From a virus: a DNA stretch of 25,346 bases. Where the stretch lies: positions 1 through 25,346 of IMG/VR virus record IMGVR_UViG_3300005858_000007, one strand, 5' to 3'. A program made the position numbers and the translations under genes. Under the pieces are notes generated by a model. The model was not told where the DNA came from and searched no databases. It worked only from the letters and a program-made list of their open reading frames with translations. Positions 5,640 through 25,236 of this stretch are shown here, one piece after another (within the stretch, counting starts at the first letter, position 1; each line of letters starts with the position of its first letter).

Positions 5640-6887
5640 ATGACTGCCGAAGTCAAAGACGCTGGCCTGGCCCGGGGAAGCGCCCCGGGCCAGCGCATTT
5701 ATAGGCCCTCCCGCGAGGTGAGGGCCGTGGACCCCTTCACCCGCACCATGACCGTGGTCGCCTCCGATGAGACGGTCGACCGCTTCGGCGAGGTGGTGCG
5801 GGCTGCGGGGTGGGAGCTGGCCAACTACCTCCGCAACCCCGTGGTGCCCTGGGCTCACGACTACTCCCGGCCTCCCGTGGGCCGGGCCCTGGACGTGCGG
5901 GTGGTGGGGCGCCAGCTCATCGCCACCATCCAGTTCGCCGACCACCCCTTCGCTGAGGAGGTGTTCCGCCTCTACCGGGACGGGTATCTGCATGCCGTCT
6001 CGGTGGGCTTCATCCCCCTGGAGTGGCACACCGAGGCCCGCGATGGGCGCACGGTGCGGGTCTACGACCGGCAGGAGCTCTTGGAGATCTCCTGCGTCGT
6101 GGTGCCGGCCAACCCCGACGCCCTGGTGGCCATCTACCGTGCCCTCTCCAACGGCGAACGCCTCCCCGAGCTGGGGGACTTGAGCCTGGCCCAGCTGCCT
6201 GCCTGGCAGCTGCGGGATGGCATCTTCGTCCCCGTCCAGCGAGGGGTGGTGCCCAGGGACGTGAGCCGGGAGACGGCGCCCGAGGACACCCCCTGGGAGG
6301 CTCCCACCCTCTCCGATTTCACCGACAAGTCCTGGGAGGACCTGTCGGAGGCGGAGAAGCGGCGTATCGCCGGGCACTTCGCCTGGGCGGCCAGCATGCC
6401 GCCTGAGCGGTTCGGCGATCTCAAGCTCCCCCACCACCGGCCCAGCGACGGGAAGGTGGTCTGGCGGGGCGTGGCTGCTGCCATGGCTGCCCTCCTGGGC
6501 GCCAGGGGTGGGGTGGACATCCCCGACGAGGACCGCCCACGGGTCTACGAGCACCTGGCCTCCCACTACCGGCAGTTCGACAAGGAGCCACCCGAACTCC
6601 GTGAGGCCCTGACTCCTGTCCAGAAGGTGGGCCGTGTCCTGTCGCGGGCCAACGAGGAGCGCATCCGCGAGGCGGTGCGGCTCCTGCAGGAGGTGCTGGC
6701 CCAGCTGGAGAAGGAGCCGGAGGTGGAAGAGCCAGAGGCACAGGAGGAGGAGGTGAGAGCTGACTTTGAGGTGGAAGAGCGCGTTCTGGCAGCCCTGAGG
6801 GATGCCCTGGCGGCGGGGGCGTCTCTCTCACGAGCTATCGCCGCAAAGATCCAGCAAATCCAGCAAATTCACGCAGGAGGTGAGTAG
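5640..6887 (+). CDS. HK97-family prohead protease with C-terminal KLPHH and scaffold-like regions
   Basis: Residues 20-165 form a serine protease of the prohead type. The catalytic residues are His73 in PWAHDY and Ser121 in AVSVGF, with an acidic partner likely in LLEISCVVVPANPDA (Glu149). It cuts the capsid delta domain during maturation. Residues 225-320 hold a second conserved module (FGDLKLPHH ... YEHLASHYRQF) that is often attached to phage proteases and whose role is not established. The last 90 residues are highly acidic and coiled-coil-like (LLQEVLAQLEKEPEVEEPE), as expected for a scaffold. At 415 residues it is about twice the length of a bare protease. ATG 5640 follows GAGGAGGGAGGAGATGAG and nearly touches the portal stop. 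Confidence 0.93.
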   Translation: MTAEVKDAGLARGSAPGQRIYRPSREVRAVDPFTRTMTVVASDETVDRFGEVVRAAGWELANYLRNPVVPWAHDYSRPPVGRALDVRVVGRQLIATIQFADHPFAEEVFRLYRDGYLHAVSVGFIPLEWHTEARDGRTVRVYDRQELLEISCVVVPANPDALVAIYRALSNGERLPELGDLSLAQLPAWQLRDGIFVPVQRGVVPRDVSRETAPEDTPWEAPTLSDFTDKSWEDLSEAEKRRIAGHFAWAASMPPERFGDLKLPHHRPSDGKVVWRGVAAAMAALLGARGGVDIPDEDRPRVYEHLASHYRQFDKEPPELREALTPVQKVGRVLSRANEERIREAVRLLQEVLAQLEKEPEVEEPEAQEEEVRADFEVEERVLAALRDALAAGASLSRAIAAKIQQIQQIHAGGE

Positions 6888-10088: not shown

Positions 10089-11087
10089 ATGGGCATAGGC
10101 GCACTCTACAAAGTCCAGAGCGGCAAGGAGACTACCCGCGGGGTGGCCGTGGCTGCTACGGCCAAGTGGGTGGGGGACCTGACGCCCTCCCCCAGCCCTG
10201 AGTGGGCAGAGCTGCAGCGGCCATCTCTGGTGGGGGCCTTTGATGCTGTGCGCATCAAGGACTCCTGGGAGGCCGACTATAAGGGCCCCCTCACCTTCGA
10301 GGCGCCCCTGCTGCATCTCCTGTCTGCTGGCGTCCGCGGTGGTGTGACGCCCACCCAGCCTGACGCCACCAATCACCCCAGCGTGAGGCTGTGGACGTTC
10401 ACCCCCACGGCCACCACCTCGGGGCAGCACCAGACCCTGACTCTGGAGTTCGGCGACGACGTGCGGGTGTGGCGGGCTACATATTGTCTGGTGTCAGAGC
10501 TGGGCATCAGCGGCAAGGCTGGCGAGAGACTGGAGCTGTCTGCCAGCCTATTCGGTCGCAGCCAGGTGGAGCTGCCCGCGGGGTTCACGCCAGGCCTCCC
10601 GGAGCTGCCTGCCAACATCGCCACCATGGCGAACACAAAGCTCTACGTGGACGATGCCACAGGCAACTATGGGACGACTGAGGTGCCAGGTGTCATCGTC
10701 TCCCTGGAGGTGAGCTTGAAGACGGGACTAGCGCCCGTCTGGACGATGGGCAGCCTCGCCTTCGCCACCCACTCTGAGCAGCGCCGGGAGCTGACCATCA
10801 CCCTCCGTGGGCTCTTCAATAACGTCTGGGCTGCCGAGTGGGCCCAGTTTGCCCAGGGTGCCCGCCGCAAGCTCCGCCTCCACATCGAAGGCCCTGCCAT
10901 CTCTGGCCCCTACAAGCGCTTCGTGCAGATAGATGTCTTCGGGCGCTGGCGGGAGGTCGGAGCTCTCCCGCCAGAGGCGGAGGAGGGCATGACGGTGATG
11001 GAGCTCACCTTCAAGAGCGAGTATGACCCTGCCCTGGGCGCCGACTTCGTCATCCGCGTCCAGAACGATATAGCGTCGCTGCCGTAG
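10089..11087 (+). CDS. Major tail tube protein
   Basis: The 332-residue, beta-rich product forms the stacked rings of the tail tube. It starts with MGIGALYKVQSGKETTRGVA broken by typical tube N-terminal features, including TTRGVAVAATAKWVG (about residues 16-30). Two similar halves follow: a plug-like beta barrel and a second barrel around IVSLEVSLKTGLAP (about residues 204-217). It ends in LTFKSEYDPALGADFVIRVQN, consistent with the two-domain tube proteins of actino- and Chloroflexota-type siphoviruses. GGGAGGTAGGTAG precedes ATG 10089. Position between the tail terminator and the chaperone/tape-measure genes is diagnostic. No sheath gene accompanies it, so the tail is not contractile. Confidence 0.85.
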   Translation: MGIGALYKVQSGKETTRGVAVAATAKWVGDLTPSPSPEWAELQRPSLVGAFDAVRIKDSWEADYKGPLTFEAPLLHLLSAGVRGGVTPTQPDATNHPSVRLWTFTPTATTSGQHQTLTLEFGDDVRVWRATYCLVSELGISGKAGERLELSASLFGRSQVELPAGFTPGLPELPANIATMANTKLYVDDATGNYGTTEVPGVIVSLEVSLKTGLAPVWTMGSLAFATHSEQRRELTITLRGLFNNVWAAEWAQFAQGARRKLRLHIEGPAISGPYKRFVQIDVFGRWREVGALPPEAEEGMTVMELTFKSEYDPALGADFVIRVQNDIASLP

Positions 11088-14172: not shown

Positions 14173-14994
14173 ATGGACCTGCGCCTCGTGGCCGGCAGTG
14201 AGGTGGTGCTCATGGACGGCTCTCAGGGCTACTACCTCACCGATGCCGCTGGCCTAACCATGCCCCCGCCCGAACACCAGGCGGTGCGGGGCGTAGGTAT
14301 GGATGGGGCCATCTGGCTGGGCACGACCTATGCCCCCAGGCAGGTGGAGTTACGACTTATGCTAGCTGCCAGCTCCCTGGAGGAGCGGCACCAGCGCCTG
14401 TCGCGCCTGGCGGCGCTGCTGGCGCCCCACACCGAGGTGGGGCTGGAGGCCATCAGGGCCGACGGCGCCTATAGCCTCAGGTGCCGCCTAACCGACATGA
14501 CGGTGCGCTATCAGGGGCCTCTGGTGGCAGAGGTGCAGCTGCAGCTGCAGGCCTTCGACCCCTTCTGGCTGGGCCAGCTCGTCCAGCAGGACTGGAGCAC
14601 CGAGGTTCGGCTTGGGGGGCCCAGCATCCCCTTCGCCATCCCCTTCGCCATCTTAGCTGAGGGTAACGCTGTCAACTTGACGGTGCAGAACCCAGGCCAG
14701 GCGATTACCCATCCGACCATCATCCTCTACGGCCCGGCCTCGGCTCCCATTGACCTCTCACATCAGGGGCTCAACGCGACGCTGGCCCTGGCCTACGACG
14801 TGGGGGATGGCGAGGCGGTGACAGTGGACATGGGCGCCAGGACAGCGAGAACATCAGGCGGTCGTAACCTCTACGACCGCCTGAGCGGGCGATTCTGGCC
14901 CCTCCTGCCCGGTCCCAACCCGCTGCGCTTCAGCGCCCAGAGCACCCTGCGGGGCCAGCTGCGGTTCACCCCGCGCTATCTGGGAGTGGTGTGA
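14173..14994 (+). CDS. Distal tail (Dit-like) protein
   Basis: The 273-residue product directly follows the tape measure, the position of the distal tail protein that closes the tube and starts the baseplate. Residues 1-130 fit the ring-forming domain: VRGVGMDGAIWLGTTYAPRQVELRL, read as strands GVGMDGAIWLG and PRQVELRLML, then a helix SLEERHQRLSRLAALLAPH. The second half is a beta-sandwich (NLTVQNPGQAITHPTIILYG) like the C-terminal galectin-type domain of Dit proteins, with DYVVVDMG-like VTVDMGARTART and LLPGPNPLRFS signatures. ATG 14173 has GGGTGGTGACGG upstream. Confidence 0.83.
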   Translation: MDLRLVAGSEVVLMDGSQGYYLTDAAGLTMPPPEHQAVRGVGMDGAIWLGTTYAPRQVELRLMLAASSLEERHQRLSRLAALLAPHTEVGLEAIRADGAYSLRCRLTDMTVRYQGPLVAEVQLQLQAFDPFWLGQLVQQDWSTEVRLGGPSIPFAIPFAILAEGNAVNLTVQNPGQAITHPTIILYGPASAPIDLSHQGLNATLALAYDVGDGEAVTVDMGARTARTSGGRNLYDRLSGRFWPLLPGPNPLRFSAQSTLRGQLRFTPRYLGVV

Positions 14995-20375: not shown

Positions 20376-22073
20376 ATGGCCTTCTCTTCGCTGGGCACCT
20401 TCGCGTCGGCCACCCACAAGACCAGCGCGTCATCGTTCAGTTTTGCGCCCAGCGCCGCTCTCAACGCCGGCGAGCTAGGCGTCCTGGTCATCGCCTGCGA
20501 CAACCTGGACGCTACGGATGGCGACTTCGGCGTCATCGCCGCCGTCAGCGACTCGGCAGGCAACACCTGGCAAAAGGCCGCCGAATTCACCAATGGCCAG
20601 GGCGGCGCCGCAGCGGGGGCAACGGTCGCCATCTGGTATACCGTCGCTGCCGCGACGCTCCCCACCACTGGCTCCATCACCATCACCTTTCGCGCCCCCC
20701 TCGTTGCCAAGGCCGTCGTCGGCCACAGATTCGCCAAAGCCCCCGACACCACCGTGAGAACCGCCGCCGCTGCTGGCCGGGCCGATGACGGCGTGGACCC
20801 TGGGCCCATCTCTCTCGCCGGCCTGGCCTCTCGCCAGTACTTGTTCATGAGAGGCATCGCCAGCGAGAGCAGCAGCACGACGGCGCTCACGGCGACTACT
20901 GGCTGGACACAGATCGGCCAGGCCGTCACGACGGGTGGTGGCTCCGCCACCAACATCGCGGCGCGAGGCGAGTATCTGATAGCCACCGCGACGAGCGTCA
21001 CCAGCGACCCCACGCTATTTATCGCCGACCACGCCTCCGCTCTGGTGGCGCTGTACGAGGAGGCGGCCCCCGTCTTCCAGGGCAGCGCCAGCCTGAGCGG
21101 CGCCGGCGTTCAATCGGCGGCAGGGCTCCCCGTCTTCATAGCCCAGGCCAACCAGCCCGGCCTGGGACAGCTCACCGGTGCTGGCCTCTACGTGGCCATC
21201 GCCCAGGCCGCCGCCTCAGGCCTCGGGCATCTGGCGGGTAGCGCCATCGCTGTAGCCCAGGCCCAGGGCCAGCTTGCCGGCACAGGAGACCTGGGTGCGG
21301 CGGGCACGCCAATAGCCCAGGGCAGCGCCAACCTAGCGGGCCAGGGCTCCCTGAGCCTCGCCACCGGCGTCGCGGGGGCAGCCCTTCTGGAGGGGCTGGG
21401 CTCTCTGGGCGCCTCGGCCCAGGCAATAGCGGTCGCCGAGGCCAACCTCACAGGCGCGGGGCACCTGGCAGCGTCAACTCTGCCCGTCCTTGTCGCTGGG
21501 GCCACCCTCCCAGGTTCTGGTTCCCTAGCGGCATCGCCCCTTTCCGCTATCGTCGCCGGTGCTGTGCTGGCCGGGCAGGGCAGCGGCAGCGCCACGGCTC
21601 AGGCGGTGGCTGTCGCTGAGGCCAGCTTCACGGGCGCGGGTGCTCTAGCGGCATCGGCCCTTCCCGTCGCTGTCGCTGCCGCCGCCCTGGCCGGCCAGGG
21701 CAACGCTAGCGCCTTGGCGGTGCTCATATTACAGGCGGGGGGCTGGCTCCCTGGCCTGGGCGATGCCCAGGCCACAGGCTCCGCCGCGGAGGCCGTCGGC
21801 TCCCTCTTGGTCGGGCAAGGCAGCATGCAGGCCACGGGCCTGCAGGTGCTCCCTGCCAGTGTCACGCTGGTCGGCGAGGGCGGCATGCTGGCCACGGCGC
21901 TGCTAATAGCCATCGCCGCTGGCATGCTGGGCGGCCACGGCCGGCTGCTGGTCATCCCGTTCGCGGAAGCCTACAGGAGGCTGGATGGTGTGGCAAAACT
22001 ACGAGAGCCAGCGCTGACAGCCCGTTACTCGCGGGCCAGGGAGGGGAAGGCCATATATCGCGCCTGGAGGTGA
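20376..22073 (+). CDS. Tail fibre with N-terminal lectin-like domain and 20-residue repeats
   Basis: Residues 1-230 form a beta-rich domain (GELGVLVIACDNLD, DSAGNTWQKAAEF, GSITITFRAP, ALVALYEEAAP) like jelly-roll modules often found in phage and surface proteins. Residues 233-524 are about 14 tandem repeats of 20 residues, ending in pattern AxLxGxGxL followed by xAxAxxVAVA, rich in Ala, Gly and Val. The last 40 residues (EAYRRLDGVAKLREPALTAR) are charged and unrelated, perhaps an attachment or capping end. No ribosome site is visible before ATG 20376 (GCTAGTTAAA), which is atypical for this operon. The next gene overlaps its stop. Role in host attachment is inferred from composition and position. 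Confidence 0.75.
   Translation: MAFSSLGTFASATHKTSASSFSFAPSAALNAGELGVLVIACDNLDATDGDFGVIAAVSDSAGNTWQKAAEFTNGQGGAAAGATVAIWYTVAAATLPTTGSITITFRAPLVAKAVVGHRFAKAPDTTVRTAAAAGRADDGVDPGPISLAGLASRQYLFMRGIASESSSTTALTATTGWTQIGQAVTTGGGSATNIAARGEYLIATATSVTSDPTLFIADHASALVALYEEAAPVFQGSASLSGAGVQSAAGLPVFIAQANQPGLGQLTGAGLYVAIAQAAASGLGHLAGSAIAVAQAQGQLAGTGDLGAAGTPIAQGSANLAGQGSLSLATGVAGAALLEGLGSLGASAQAIAVAEANLTGAGHLAASTLPVLVAGATLPGSGSLAASPLSAIVAGAVLAGQGSGSATAQAVAVAEASFTGAGALAASALPVAVAAAALAGQGNASALAVLILQAGGWLPGLGDAQATGSAAEAVGSLLVGQGSMQATGLQVLPASVTLVGEGGMLATALLIAIAAGMLGGHGRLLVIPFAEAYRRLDGVAKLREPALTARYSRAREGKAIYRAWR
21072..21947 (+). repeat. About 14 tandem 60-bp units (20 codons) in the fibre gene
   Basis: The protein can be divided into units such as AASTLPVLVAGATLPGSGSL, AASPLSAIVAGAVLAGQGSG, SATAQAVAVAEASFTGAGAL and AASALPVAVAAAALAGQGNA, each of 20 residues. 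One unit of 18 and one of 21 occur. At DNA level GCATCGSCCCTT-type starts recur at 21471, 21531 and 21651, multiples of 60 bp. Such a regular unit suggests a beta-solenoid or similar shaft and may change length by recombination. Confidence 0.85.
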
Positions 22074-22903: not shown

Positions 22904-23620
22904 GTGCCTGTCGTCCTGGGCTGGCGGGTCATGACGCCCGTGTGGTGTGCCACGTGTGGGGGCGTTACCCTGGAAGGCATCCGGGGCCACTCTCATTTGC
23001 CCCAGCGCCTTAGCTATCCAGCCGTCTGCCTGGGTTATGTAGAGCACATCGCCCACACCCATCTACAGCATGACCCAGAGTGGAAACCGCCCCAGGAACA
23101 TATCGCCGCCAATTCCAGCCTGACGGCGCAATGCTACTACTGCTTCTGGGGCATCTGCCAGCACATTAAGGAACTCCTCCATGGCACGCCCCACCATCTG
23201 CCACCAGCGCCCCACCCGTATTGCACCTGCGGCTACTACATTCTGTGGCGCCCCCAAGACCAATCCAGCGTGGGCGTTGACGTGCTGGGCGGGCGAGTCT
23301 GGCTGTATGTCGTGGGCGTAGGCAGATACGTGGCCTATACCGAAGGAGCGCGACTAGAGCGTTATCGCCTCCTGCGCTGGTGGTGGCCCTTAACCGAGTG
23401 GCAAGGCGAATGGCAGCCAGTAGATGCCCGGGCCCGCAGTCGTGTCTACGCGACCGAAGCCGCCCTCTGGTGGCGGGGCACCGCCCTCGACTGGCACGAC
23501 GTCGTAGAGGCGCTGAAGCTGCGGTATGCCCTGCCCCCCGTGGTGGGCGACCCCAGGGAAGCTGACCTGCCTTCGGGCGTTCTACAGCAGCTGCCAGATG
23601 TCGTGGAATCAATGCTATGA
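22904..23620 (+). CDS. Multi-Cys/His protein, probable multi-zinc fold
   Basis: GTG 22904 (MPVVLGWR) is preferred because GGGAGGTGACTGC precedes it; the frame could be extended to 22805 but without support. The 238-residue product has CATCGG near residue 17, further Cys/His pairs in VCLGYVEHIAHTH, then CYYCFWGICQHIKE and CTCGYYILW near 105. After these comes a beta-rich GVDVLGGRVWLYVVGVGRYVA part with YTEGARLERYRLL. Proteins with a CxCGIYA-like turn followed by GxVxLWGxV and xGYRAexA occur in actinobacteria and relatives as hypotheticals, and this looks like a distant form. A treble-clef-rich binding protein is likely. Its start and stop are tightly coupled to its neighbours. Confidence 0.65.
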   Translation: MPVVLGWRVMTPVWCATCGGVTLEGIRGHSHLPQRLSYPAVCLGYVEHIAHTHLQHDPEWKPPQEHIAANSSLTAQCYYCFWGICQHIKELLHGTPHHLPPAPHPYCTCGYYILWRPQDQSSVGVDVLGGRVWLYVVGVGRYVAYTEGARLERYRLLRWWWPLTEWQGEWQPVDARARSRVYATEAALWWRGTALDWHDVVEALKLRYALPPVVGDPREADLPSGVLQQLPDVVESML

Positions 23621-23886
23621 AACCCCTGGCTGCATGTGTGCACCACTGGCGCATTCTGAGCACGCCCACGACCCAGGGCTATTATGCTCGCTGCCGTCAC
23701 TGCCACGCCGAGCGCTACCTCCCAGTTGAGCCACCGCCACGGAAACCTCATTTCCAGGAGCTGCGCCTGCGGGACCGCGAACTGGCCTGGGATGGCTGGT
23801 TCCGCAAATTAGAGTGGGAGTCTGGCGAGGGCGTGCTGAGCCGCCTCCGTCGCGCCAAGCGCCTCTACTATGGCACGCTCATCTAA
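23617..23886 (+). CDS. Small zinc-ribbon-like protein upstream of integrase
   Basis: ATG 23617 overlaps the preceding stop as ATGA. The 89-residue product has CVHHW (about 7-11), then TTQGYYARCRHCHAER with C-x2-C near 26-29, and a basic helical C-terminal half (LRRAKRLYYG). The C-x2-H ... YxxxCRHC layout resembles the proteins at 8176 and, less closely, at 1-156. Its end overlaps the integrase start by 17 nt, so the two should be translated together. It could be an accessory to recombination, such as a directionality factor, but there is no direct evidence. Confidence 0.65.
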   Translation: MKPLAACVHHWRILSTPTTQGYYARCRHCHAERYLPVEPPPRKPHFQELRLRDRELAWDGWFRKLEWESGEGVLSRLRRAKRLYYGTLI

Positions 23887-24427
23887 ACGCCTGCCCGATA
23901 TCCTGACGGAGACGGAGCTAGAGAGCCTCCTGTCCGTCGCCGAAGAGGACGCCCGTGCTTACGCCATCGTGACCCTGATGGCCTACGCCGGGCTGCGCGT
24001 CTCCGAGGTGGCCAAATTGCGCTGGCAGGACGTGGAGGCAGGCACCATCTGGGTGCGCATGGGAAAAGGACGGAAGGACCGGGTGGTGCCGGCGCACCGG
24101 CGGGTGCTGGAGGCGCTGGAGCGACTTCGCAAAACGTCGCTTTTGCGAAGCCCCTACGTGTTCCCATCGCCTCGCAACCCCCGCAGACCCATCACCACCA
24201 GGGCCCTGCAGTACCTGATCGAGCGGTTGTGCCAGGAGGCCGGCATCCCCCGCTACAAGGCCCACCCCCATACCTTGCGCCACACCATGGCCACTCGCCT
24301 GCTACGAGCCACGCACGACATCCGGCTCGTGCAGAAGGCCCTGGGCCACGCCTCCATCGCCACCACGCAGATTTATACCCATCTGGCTCTGGATGATGTG
24401 GCAGAAGGTATTGCCCGCCTATCATAA
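23870..24427 (+). CDS. int: Minimal tyrosine recombinase / integrase (catalytic domain only)
   Basis: The 185-residue protein has the full active site of a tyrosine recombinase: Arg43 in YAGLRVSE, Lys66 in MGKGRKDR, His134 and Arg137 in HTLRH, His160 in LGHASIATT and nucleophile Tyr169 in IYTHL. The amino-terminal core-binding (SAM-like) domain and arm-binding domain found in typical 300-400-residue integrases are absent. They cannot be added, because TGA at 23837 blocks the frame upstream. The size is close to FimB/FimE-type recombinases. The start ATG has no ribosome site, so translation relies on coupling to the 23617 gene. It most likely performs integration/excision or resolution. A 26-bp palindrome lies within the gene at 24125. 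Confidence 0.9.
   Translation: MARSSKRLPDILTETELESLLSVAEEDARAYAIVTLMAYAGLRVSEVAKLRWQDVEAGTIWVRMGKGRKDRVVPAHRRVLEALERLRKTSLLRSPYVFPSPRNPRRPITTRALQYLIERLCQEAGIPRYKAHPHTLRHTMATRLLRATHDIRLVQKALGHASIATTQIYTHLALDDVAEGIARLS
24125..24150 (+). repeat. Perfect 10-bp inverted repeat with 6-bp centre inside int
   Basis: CTTCGCAAAA (24125-24134) and TTTTGCGAAG (24141-24150) flank CGTCGC. The arms are AT-richer than the surrounding gene. The shape, about 10-bp arms with a 6-bp centre, is like Xer/dif or phage core sites; an RNA hairpin reducing int translation is the plain alternative. Confidence 0.5.
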
Positions 24428-24441
24428 TAGGAGGTGCACCC

Positions 24442-24693
24442 ATGAGCGGGTTTCGCCCAGACGCCAAATACTCGCCAACCGCCGACGCCATTTACGTGTA
24501 TCTAAGCGACCAGCCCGTGGCCTACAACCGTGAGCTAGATGACCACCGCCTCATCGACTACTCTGCTAACGGCGCCGTGGTAGGCATAGAGTTTCTGGGT
24601 GTAAGTGGTGGCATTGACCTCAGCAACATCCCTCTGCCTGCAATACAAAAGGCGGCTGTTCTTGCGCTATTGAATGACGTGACAGAGAGATGA
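24442..24693 (+). CDS. DUF2283 family protein
   Basis: The 83-residue product matches the DUF2283 pattern: SPTADAIYVYLSDQ at the start, RLIDYSANGAVVGIEFLG in the middle and a hydrophobic helix at the end. The function of the family is not settled. Its members are often paired with DUF4258 proteins in toxin-antitoxin-like modules, but no DUF4258 gene is present here, so it would be an orphan. GGAGGTG lies 6 nt upstream of ATG 24442; a short CCTAT/ATAGG hairpin at 24418-24431 touches this site and could lower its translation. It follows int by 14 nt and may be co-transcribed. Confidence 0.82.
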   Translation: MSGFRPDAKYSPTADAIYVYLSDQPVAYNRELDDHRLIDYSANGAVVGIEFLGVSGGIDLSNIPLPAIQKAAVLALLNDVTER

Positions 24694-24713
24694 AGAGGGG
24701 GCGGAGACTCCTT

Positions 24714-25184
24714 TCACGCGCCCGCCAAAACTAACCGCAAGGCCCTAATGGCCGCCGCTCCCTTGCGAGCGGCCTTGGCATACCAGTAGATAACCTCTTC
24801 GTCTCCCATCTCGGCGATGCCTGCCCGTAGAAGCGCCCAGCGGCTGGGCTTCTGGACGGAGGCCATGGCCCACAGGAGAAGGACAATACGCGCCCCCAGG
24901 GCCTCGTCCAAGCGGAAGCGACCCCGGCCCCTCTCCTCCAGGCGGGAGAGGGAGAAGCCATGGCGGTGCAACATCTCCAGCACAGCGGGGAGAGCCCCCT
25001 GCGCCCGTGCCCCGGCCAGGACAGCCAGGCGCTGAGTTTGCTCACGCCCAGCACCCCTGCCCAGTAGAGGCCGCCGGATGGTGACCACCATCCGGAGTGC
25101 CGCAAGATCCAACGTGAGGGTGAAGGGCCGATAGTGCTCCTGGGGCCGAACATGGCGCGACAGAGACGCTGACCTCCTGGCCAT
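24714..25184 (-). CDS. DUF7680-like protein, convergent, possibly host
   Basis: ATG 25184 is chosen over GTG 25193 because AGGTGAGG lies just upstream of it. The 156-residue product has a beta-rich start (FTLTLDLAALRMVVTIRR), a helix LPAVLEMLHRHGFSLSRLEE, then LDEALGARIVLLLWAMASVQ and a terminal GIAEMGDEEVIYWYAKAARK with a final helix AIRALRLVLAGA. This order, with the DEExxYW ... A-L-R ending, is what I remember of DUF7680, a family that has been seen beside DUF499/DUF1156-type methylase systems; I could not run a search. It faces the integrase operon and lies beyond it, so it may mark the host side of the junction. Only 20 nt separate it from the DUF2283 gene. Confidence 0.6.
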   Translation of the reverse strand: MARRSASLSRHVRPQEHYRPFTLTLDLAALRMVVTIRRPLLGRGAGREQTQRLAVLAGARAQGALPAVLEMLHRHGFSLSRLEERGRGRFRLDEALGARIVLLLWAMASVQKPSRWALLRAGIAEMGDEEVIYWYAKAARKGAAAIRALRLVLAGA

Positions 25185-25236
25185 CGTCCTCACCTACATA
25201 TATGGCCGCCGCCCGTTCCATTCTGCCACGATAGTG

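Follow-up and report, generated by a model that had tools for sequence, protein, structure and literature searches.

Can a tyrosine recombinase that consists of little more than its catalytic domain act at a DNA site lying within its own coding sequence? The question is raised by a locus near one end of a linear virus record, 25,346 b long, the whole of which was analysed and is called the window here. The window holds a siphovirus structural module (terminase, portal, protease/capsid and tape measure), and the features that bear on the question are these:

23617-23886, plus strand: small Cys/His-rich (zinc-ribbon) ORF of 89 aa that overlaps the start of the recombinase; no Pfam or PHROG match.
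23837-23839, plus strand: in-frame TGA that bars an N-terminal extension of the recombinase.
23870-24427, plus strand: catalytic-domain-only, Xer-like tyrosine recombinase of 185 aa (PF00589, XerA match, homologue in genome G455).
24124-24151, no strand assigned: dif-like core site of 11-6-11 layout, ACTTCGCAAAA CGTCGC TTTTGCGAAGC, in codons 86-94 of the recombinase.
24442-24693, plus strand: DUF2283 protein (PF10049, 1e-12), with GGAGGTG just ahead of it.
24714-25193, minus strand: DUF7680 protein (PF24728, 3e-24), convergent with the recombinase.

The original prediction held that the 185 residues contain every active-site residue, that the N-terminal domain is absent and that an upstream stop excludes it, and all of this is borne out. 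In a profile search PF00589 covers residues 12-173 (3e-43, 147.9 bits), and Pfam profiles detected no SAM-like or core-binding domain in the protein. R43, K66, H134, R137, H160 and Y169 are invariant in the recombinase alignment and complete the R-K-H-R-H-Y set, so the ORF has both the fold and the residues of a tyrosine recombinase. Upstream, no start codon lies between the TGA at 23837 and position 23870. Another window gene was considered as a source of the N-terminal domain and set aside, as none of the scanned ORFs contains a SAM-like domain. When AF2 was given an alignment of 25 relatives, it returned a model with a pLDDT of 90 and a pTM of 0.86, which superimposes on the catalytic domain of XerA with a TM of 0.84-0.85; a model made without the alignment had a pLDDT of 49 and was discarded.

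By sequence, NCBIfam profile and fold, the catalytic domain is nearest to XerA. Yet the protein aligns only with residues 133-302 of XerA (5hxy) and matches only positions 88-260 of the XerA NCBIfam profile, scoring 158.7 bits against a cut-off of 220, and thus lacks both the core-binding domain and the score of an Xer recombinase proper. Its architecture is instead that of the catalytic-only FimB/FimE proteins (~200 aa); the NCBIfam profile for tyrosine-type DNA invertases (200 positions) matches at 6e-14, with 52.1 bits and so below the cut-off of 221. PF16795, the SSV-type integrase family, found no match in the profile search, where PF00589 alone was recovered. The catalytic domain of a tyrosine recombinase usually binds DNA weakly without its clamp.

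The palindrome within the gene was confirmed to the base, since the perfect inverted repeat CTTCGCAAAA-CGTCGC-TTTTGCGAAG, with arms of 10 bp and a centre of 6 bp, occupies exactly 24125-24150. When the recombinase gene was resampled synonymously, a palindrome with this arm length and gap arose in 0.08% of cases, and one with any gap up to 12 in 2.4%. The coding DNA of the window holds six perfect hairpins (arms of at least 10 bp, gap of at most 12) against 0.9 expected, and therefore palindromy alone is weak to moderate evidence. Perfect hairpins, mostly intragenic, lie at 14854-14884, 5667-5693, 10946-10974, 21752-21774, 25074-25095 and 1694-1724. None of the window hairpins other than that at 24125 is dif-like, the others having strongly negative scores under the dif model.

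Taken as an 11-6-11 element (24124-24151), the palindrome has the layout and the XerC/XerD-like arms of a dif site. Its dif-arm score of 17.7 ranks first in the window and just reaches the range of real dif sites (from 17.7 upwards), on arm models built from a published table of proteobacterial dif sites (PMC2731167). Shuffled windows gave maxima of 8.0 +/- 3.0, and 0 of 60 reached 17.7; the same score was reached by 0 of 1500 synonymous recombinase genes and by 13 of 40,000 random palindromes. The left arm, ACTTCGCAAAA, is identical at 10 of 11 positions to the XerC arm of the Thiobacillus denitrificans dif, ACTTCGCATAA, with one base different (PMC2731167). No second dif-like site was found elsewhere in the 25,346 b, so no internal substrate is visible. 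The case for more than chance is thus strong by sequence and moderate by palindromy, and, with the conservation of the arms described below, we take 24125-24150 to be functional DNA.

A close relative of the recombinase gene was found in one of 393 genomes of the class at E <= 1e-30. This genome, G455, is a fragmented assembly, as is the genome G433 described below. Its contig C10 encodes, at 24596-25159, a catalytic-only recombinase of 187 aa that is 62% identical to the window protein (66% at the nucleotide level). The palindrome in the G455 gene occupies the same codons as in the window, with both arms identical and the 6-bp centre changed from CGTCGC to TGTCAC. The rare codons CTT, TTG, CGA and AAA are kept at 5 of 5 positions in the arms vs 0 of 6 elsewhere (Fisher p=0.002), and codons for the same residue that end in A or T are kept at 4 of 4 vs 1 of 19 positions (Fisher p=0.0006). 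It is the sequence itself that is kept, there being no compensatory changes between the arms. Thus, because the arm codons persist and the centre bases differ between the two genes, the arms are constrained as DNA and the centre not, as expected for the core site of a tyrosine recombinase, where the overlap has to match only its partner. The original prediction had named synonymous decay of the palindrome in relatives as the observation that would count against it, and in G455 the arms survived; its reading of the palindrome as having the geometry of an Xer core site likewise gains from dif-like arms that are conserved base for base around a variable centre.

How far does this conservation extend? 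In distant homologues no palindrome was found at the equivalent place, and full-length homologues carry one at the background rate, so the palindrome is conserved in the near clade only. In viral contigs scanned by alignment, about 12 of 80 loci encode recombinases of 186-230 aa, too short to include a core-binding domain, and 4 of these ~12 have a second, full-length recombinase within ~4 kb. None of the ~12 has a comparable 10-6-10 palindrome in its gene. The catalytic-only architecture is therefore recurrent, and this clade of two is so far alone in having the embedded site. The viral loci L194, L195, L202 and L238 each pair a full-length tyrosine recombinase with a catalytic-only one. A search of IMG/VR by recombinase, portal and capsid protein found no close relatives; terminase relatives there reach 51-53% identity and mostly come from fragments without any recombinase.

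The G455 gene belongs to a prophage that shares its late-gene order with the window phage (tail proteins 79-81% identical, tape measure 55%). There the late (tail/lysis) run that corresponds to that of the window ends with the catalytic-only recombinase, and the window recombinase lies near the end of the same run. The prophage begins beside a tRNA-Asp gene with a full-length integrase of 305 aa that carries a SAM-like domain, and it is bounded, at the contig end, by an exact 52-bp copy of the 3' end of tRNA-Asp. Beyond this copy, 2.2 kb of DNA align at 89% identity with host sequence in G438, a genome of the same family, and the tRNA-Asp end and its 52-bp copy form a standard attL/attR pair. 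Within the integrated prophage the catalytic-only gene and its palindrome are both intact. Thus, in G455 integration did not take place at the palindrome and has left the gene undivided, contrary to one option of the original prediction, in which the palindrome would be attP and integration would divide the gene. The relative instead has two recombinases, the catalytic-only enzyme being separate from the integrase that inserts the prophage. A tRNA-type attP was also sought in the window, where no tRNA was found.

The original prediction had further suggested that the zinc-ribbon protein encoded at 23617 might serve as a partner in place of the missing domain. No counterpart of ORF 23617-23886 lies beside the G455 recombinase, the only trace being a short host-side match in C10. 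This argues against the zinc-ribbon protein as a substitute for the domain.

Are there similar sites outside these two phages? We searched for the pattern TTCGCAAAA-N6-TTTTGCGAA in 400 genomes from the phylum of a Caldilineales (Chloroflexota) genome. Exact copies occurred only in G433, which has three, and a control with the reversed pattern gave 0. A looser search added a fourth copy in G433 and one in G455, both members of the same four-genome bacterial family; the other two members, G438 and G456, have no site within 3 mismatches. G433 thus has four copies, G455 one, carried by the phage, and G438 and G456 none, which is not the distribution of a single conserved dif copy at the terminus. 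The four G433 sites have near-identical arms and different centres: ACTTCGCAAAA TCCATC TTTTGCGAAGT, ACTTCGCAAAA TCCCTC TATTGCGAAGT, ACTTCGCAAAA GGCACG TTTTGCGAAGC and CTTTCGCAAAA GAGGCC TTTTGCGAAGC. The palindrome is the precise starting point of 227 bp that contigs C25 and C26 have in common (90%); on its other side, C26 matches the C5 flank in inverted orientation at 74%. Flanks that break at the palindromes in this way are of the kind that site-specific exchange produces, although these contigs are short and drafty, with the sites near contig ends and some flank matches at only 74%. Half of a recombinase gene was not found as a flank at any of the G433 sites. One site adjoins an Hma-like defence operon, and G433 encodes Xer-like proteins of its own (open frames of 310 and 377 aa). 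Several G433 contigs start or end with the same ~50 bp (for example L305:1-53 and L306:1-53), either a dispersed repeat or an assembly edge.

In viral contigs the motif is present in modest excess, with 13 stretches (~9 distinct) vs 3 for a matched control pattern. At one locus (L323:1-8661), the site TTCGCAAAA-CTATGC-TTTTGCGAA lies between an integrated microvirus, with capsid and Rep genes, and a host block that encodes a LexA-like protein, an XerS-like recombinase and a CD-NTase-like protein. This is likely a single-Xer attachment site; dif-like sites are a known target of microvirus integration (PMC3091885). Another group of occurrences is on viral contigs with a Rep_3 plasmid initiator. 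The sites in L106 and L107, intergenic in an AT-rich phage, were uninformative and were dropped as evidence.

What, then, could the enzyme and its embedded site be for? The reading that we tentatively favour, with somewhat less than even confidence, is that of a second, Xer-like, catalytic-only recombinase, expressed late as its gene order suggests, which would act at the site in its own gene, probably by homotypic exchange between phage copies. The coding sequence would carry the enzyme's own 28-bp dif-like core, with two identical 11-bp arms and a 6-bp overlap, and such perfect symmetry suits a single recombinase on both arms, in the manner of Cre or XerH. As the coding sequence itself contains the site, recombination of one phage copy with another would regenerate the gene on both sides with no need to match a host overlap, and recombination of identical phage sites is therefore the likeliest use, whether in resolving multimers or concatemers or in circularising the genome. 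Prophage integration would be left to a separate full-length integrase at tRNA-Asp, as in G455, and a host Xer protein or other factor may complete the complex in place of the missing core-binding domain. We infer both that the 185-aa protein acts on 24124-24151 and that multimer resolution is the purpose.

Parts of the same evidence could be explained in other ways. The palindrome may be a site for host Xer proteins, recognised by XerC/XerD or by a single Xer in the way known for IMEX phages and plasmid pdif sites, with the catalytic-only protein modulating the reaction or unrelated to it. Such a role would fit arms that resemble the dif XerC arm, a motif that borders an integrated microvirus and recurs on a viral contig with a Rep_3 initiator, and G433 sites whose variable centres look like pdif modules in a genome with two Xer-like frames. 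We nonetheless regard it as unlikely, since a position inside the recombinase gene in both phages would be odd for a host-only site, perfect symmetry is unlike the asymmetric XerC/XerD dif, and the family genomes G438 and G456 lack the site at up to 3 mismatches. A hairpin that serves as an operator or RNA structure controlling the gene would also have this stem-loop geometry, and coding hairpins are over-represented in this phage. However, the arms are conserved beyond what pairing demands, the motif recurs in unrelated flanks in G433 and the other window palindromes are nothing like dif, all of which makes a regulatory role very improbable.

The remaining alternatives take the palindrome as a recombination site with a different use. 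Integration of the SSV kind, with the palindrome as attP and the recombinase gene split on insertion, could draw on the dif-like site in the gene and on matching sites in one genome from the relative's host family; with the G455 prophage inserted by another integrase and its catalytic-only gene whole, with no half-gene beside any G433 site, and with such integrases reported only in archaea (PMC8371274), we hold it to be a long shot. The sites might instead flank movable modules, such as defence genes or phage segments, which a late recombinase would swap between phage and host DNA in the manner of pdif. Hybrid flanks at the G433 sites, one of them beside the Hma-like operon, point this way, as does the window DUF7680 gene, whose product is 73% identical (77% at the nucleotide level) to that of a gene in the same operon. 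That homologue (L305:9728-10153) sits between an HmaC-like ATPase and an HmaB-like methylase, but it is 6.5 kb from the palindrome copy and not bounded by two sites, and the centres differ between sites, normally a block to strand exchange; module exchange is thus distinctly improbable. The DUF7680 gene of the window may be a phage-borne defence accessory or host flank at the record's end.

Like dif and difH, the window site is 11-6-11 with XerC-like arms, but it is perfectly symmetric and lies inside a recombinase gene; unlike XerA, XerC, XerD and XerH, the window enzyme has no core-binding domain and is encoded as a phage late gene. Cre and loxP of phage P1 are a phage recombinase and a linked symmetric site, used homotypically for circularisation or dimer resolution. 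They resemble the window pair in this linkage, but Cre has an N-terminal domain, and loxP, with its spacer of 8 bp, is situated outside cre. The FimB, FimE, FimX and IpuA invertases are catalytic-only proteins of ~200 aa like the window recombinase, which differs in scoring below the family cut-off and in that the window contains neither a second site nor an invertible segment. DNA inversion, as of tail-fibre genes, was accordingly discarded as a role, since the 25-kb record holds neither another site nor long inverted repeats that match. The 3' end of the IpuA gene overlaps its own invertible element, and inversion removes the last 11 residues (PMC6083910), so that in IpuA there is a bacterial precedent for a recombinase gene that overlaps its site. 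In IMEX phages, integrated microviruses and pdif modules, Xer proteins use 28-bp dif-like sites that vary in their 6-bp centre (PMC3091885, PMC6449649); these elements differ from the window in relying on host recombinases and in a site that is normally outside the recombinase gene. The SSV-type archaeal integrases do have the core site within the recombinase gene, but the window gene has no PF16795 match, its site is not tRNA-like, and the G455 relative is integrated at another place, by a different enzyme, and keeps its catalytic-only gene whole. Such suicidal, gene-splitting integrases have been stated to be exclusively archaeal (PMC8371274).

A broader interpretation, which we think unlikely, is a bacterial-phage cassette in which the gene for a clamp-less recombinase is its own recombination site. 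Selection would hold the protein and the arms in the same codons while the overlap drifts, giving each lineage its own specificity, and exchange with another copy or a host site could reassort the two halves of the gene, N-terminal and catalytic, or the modules next to it. Bacteria would then have an equivalent of the att sites within genes that have until now been described as archaeal. If the enzyme does act at the site in its own gene, the locus would show how a clamp-less tyrosine recombinase can be maintained in phages that also have a full integrase, gene-embedded core sites would seem not to be confined to archaea, and the locus would offer a natural minimal unit of enzyme plus site, ~560 bp long, for study, with 24124-24151 as a concrete substrate for a recurrent, unassigned group of catalytic-only phage recombinases. 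At a further viral locus (L313:2683-4210), a catalytic-only recombinase of 187 aa lies beside a terminase-like gene, with a TTCGCAAAA-N6-TTTTGCGAA site ~0.9 kb away.
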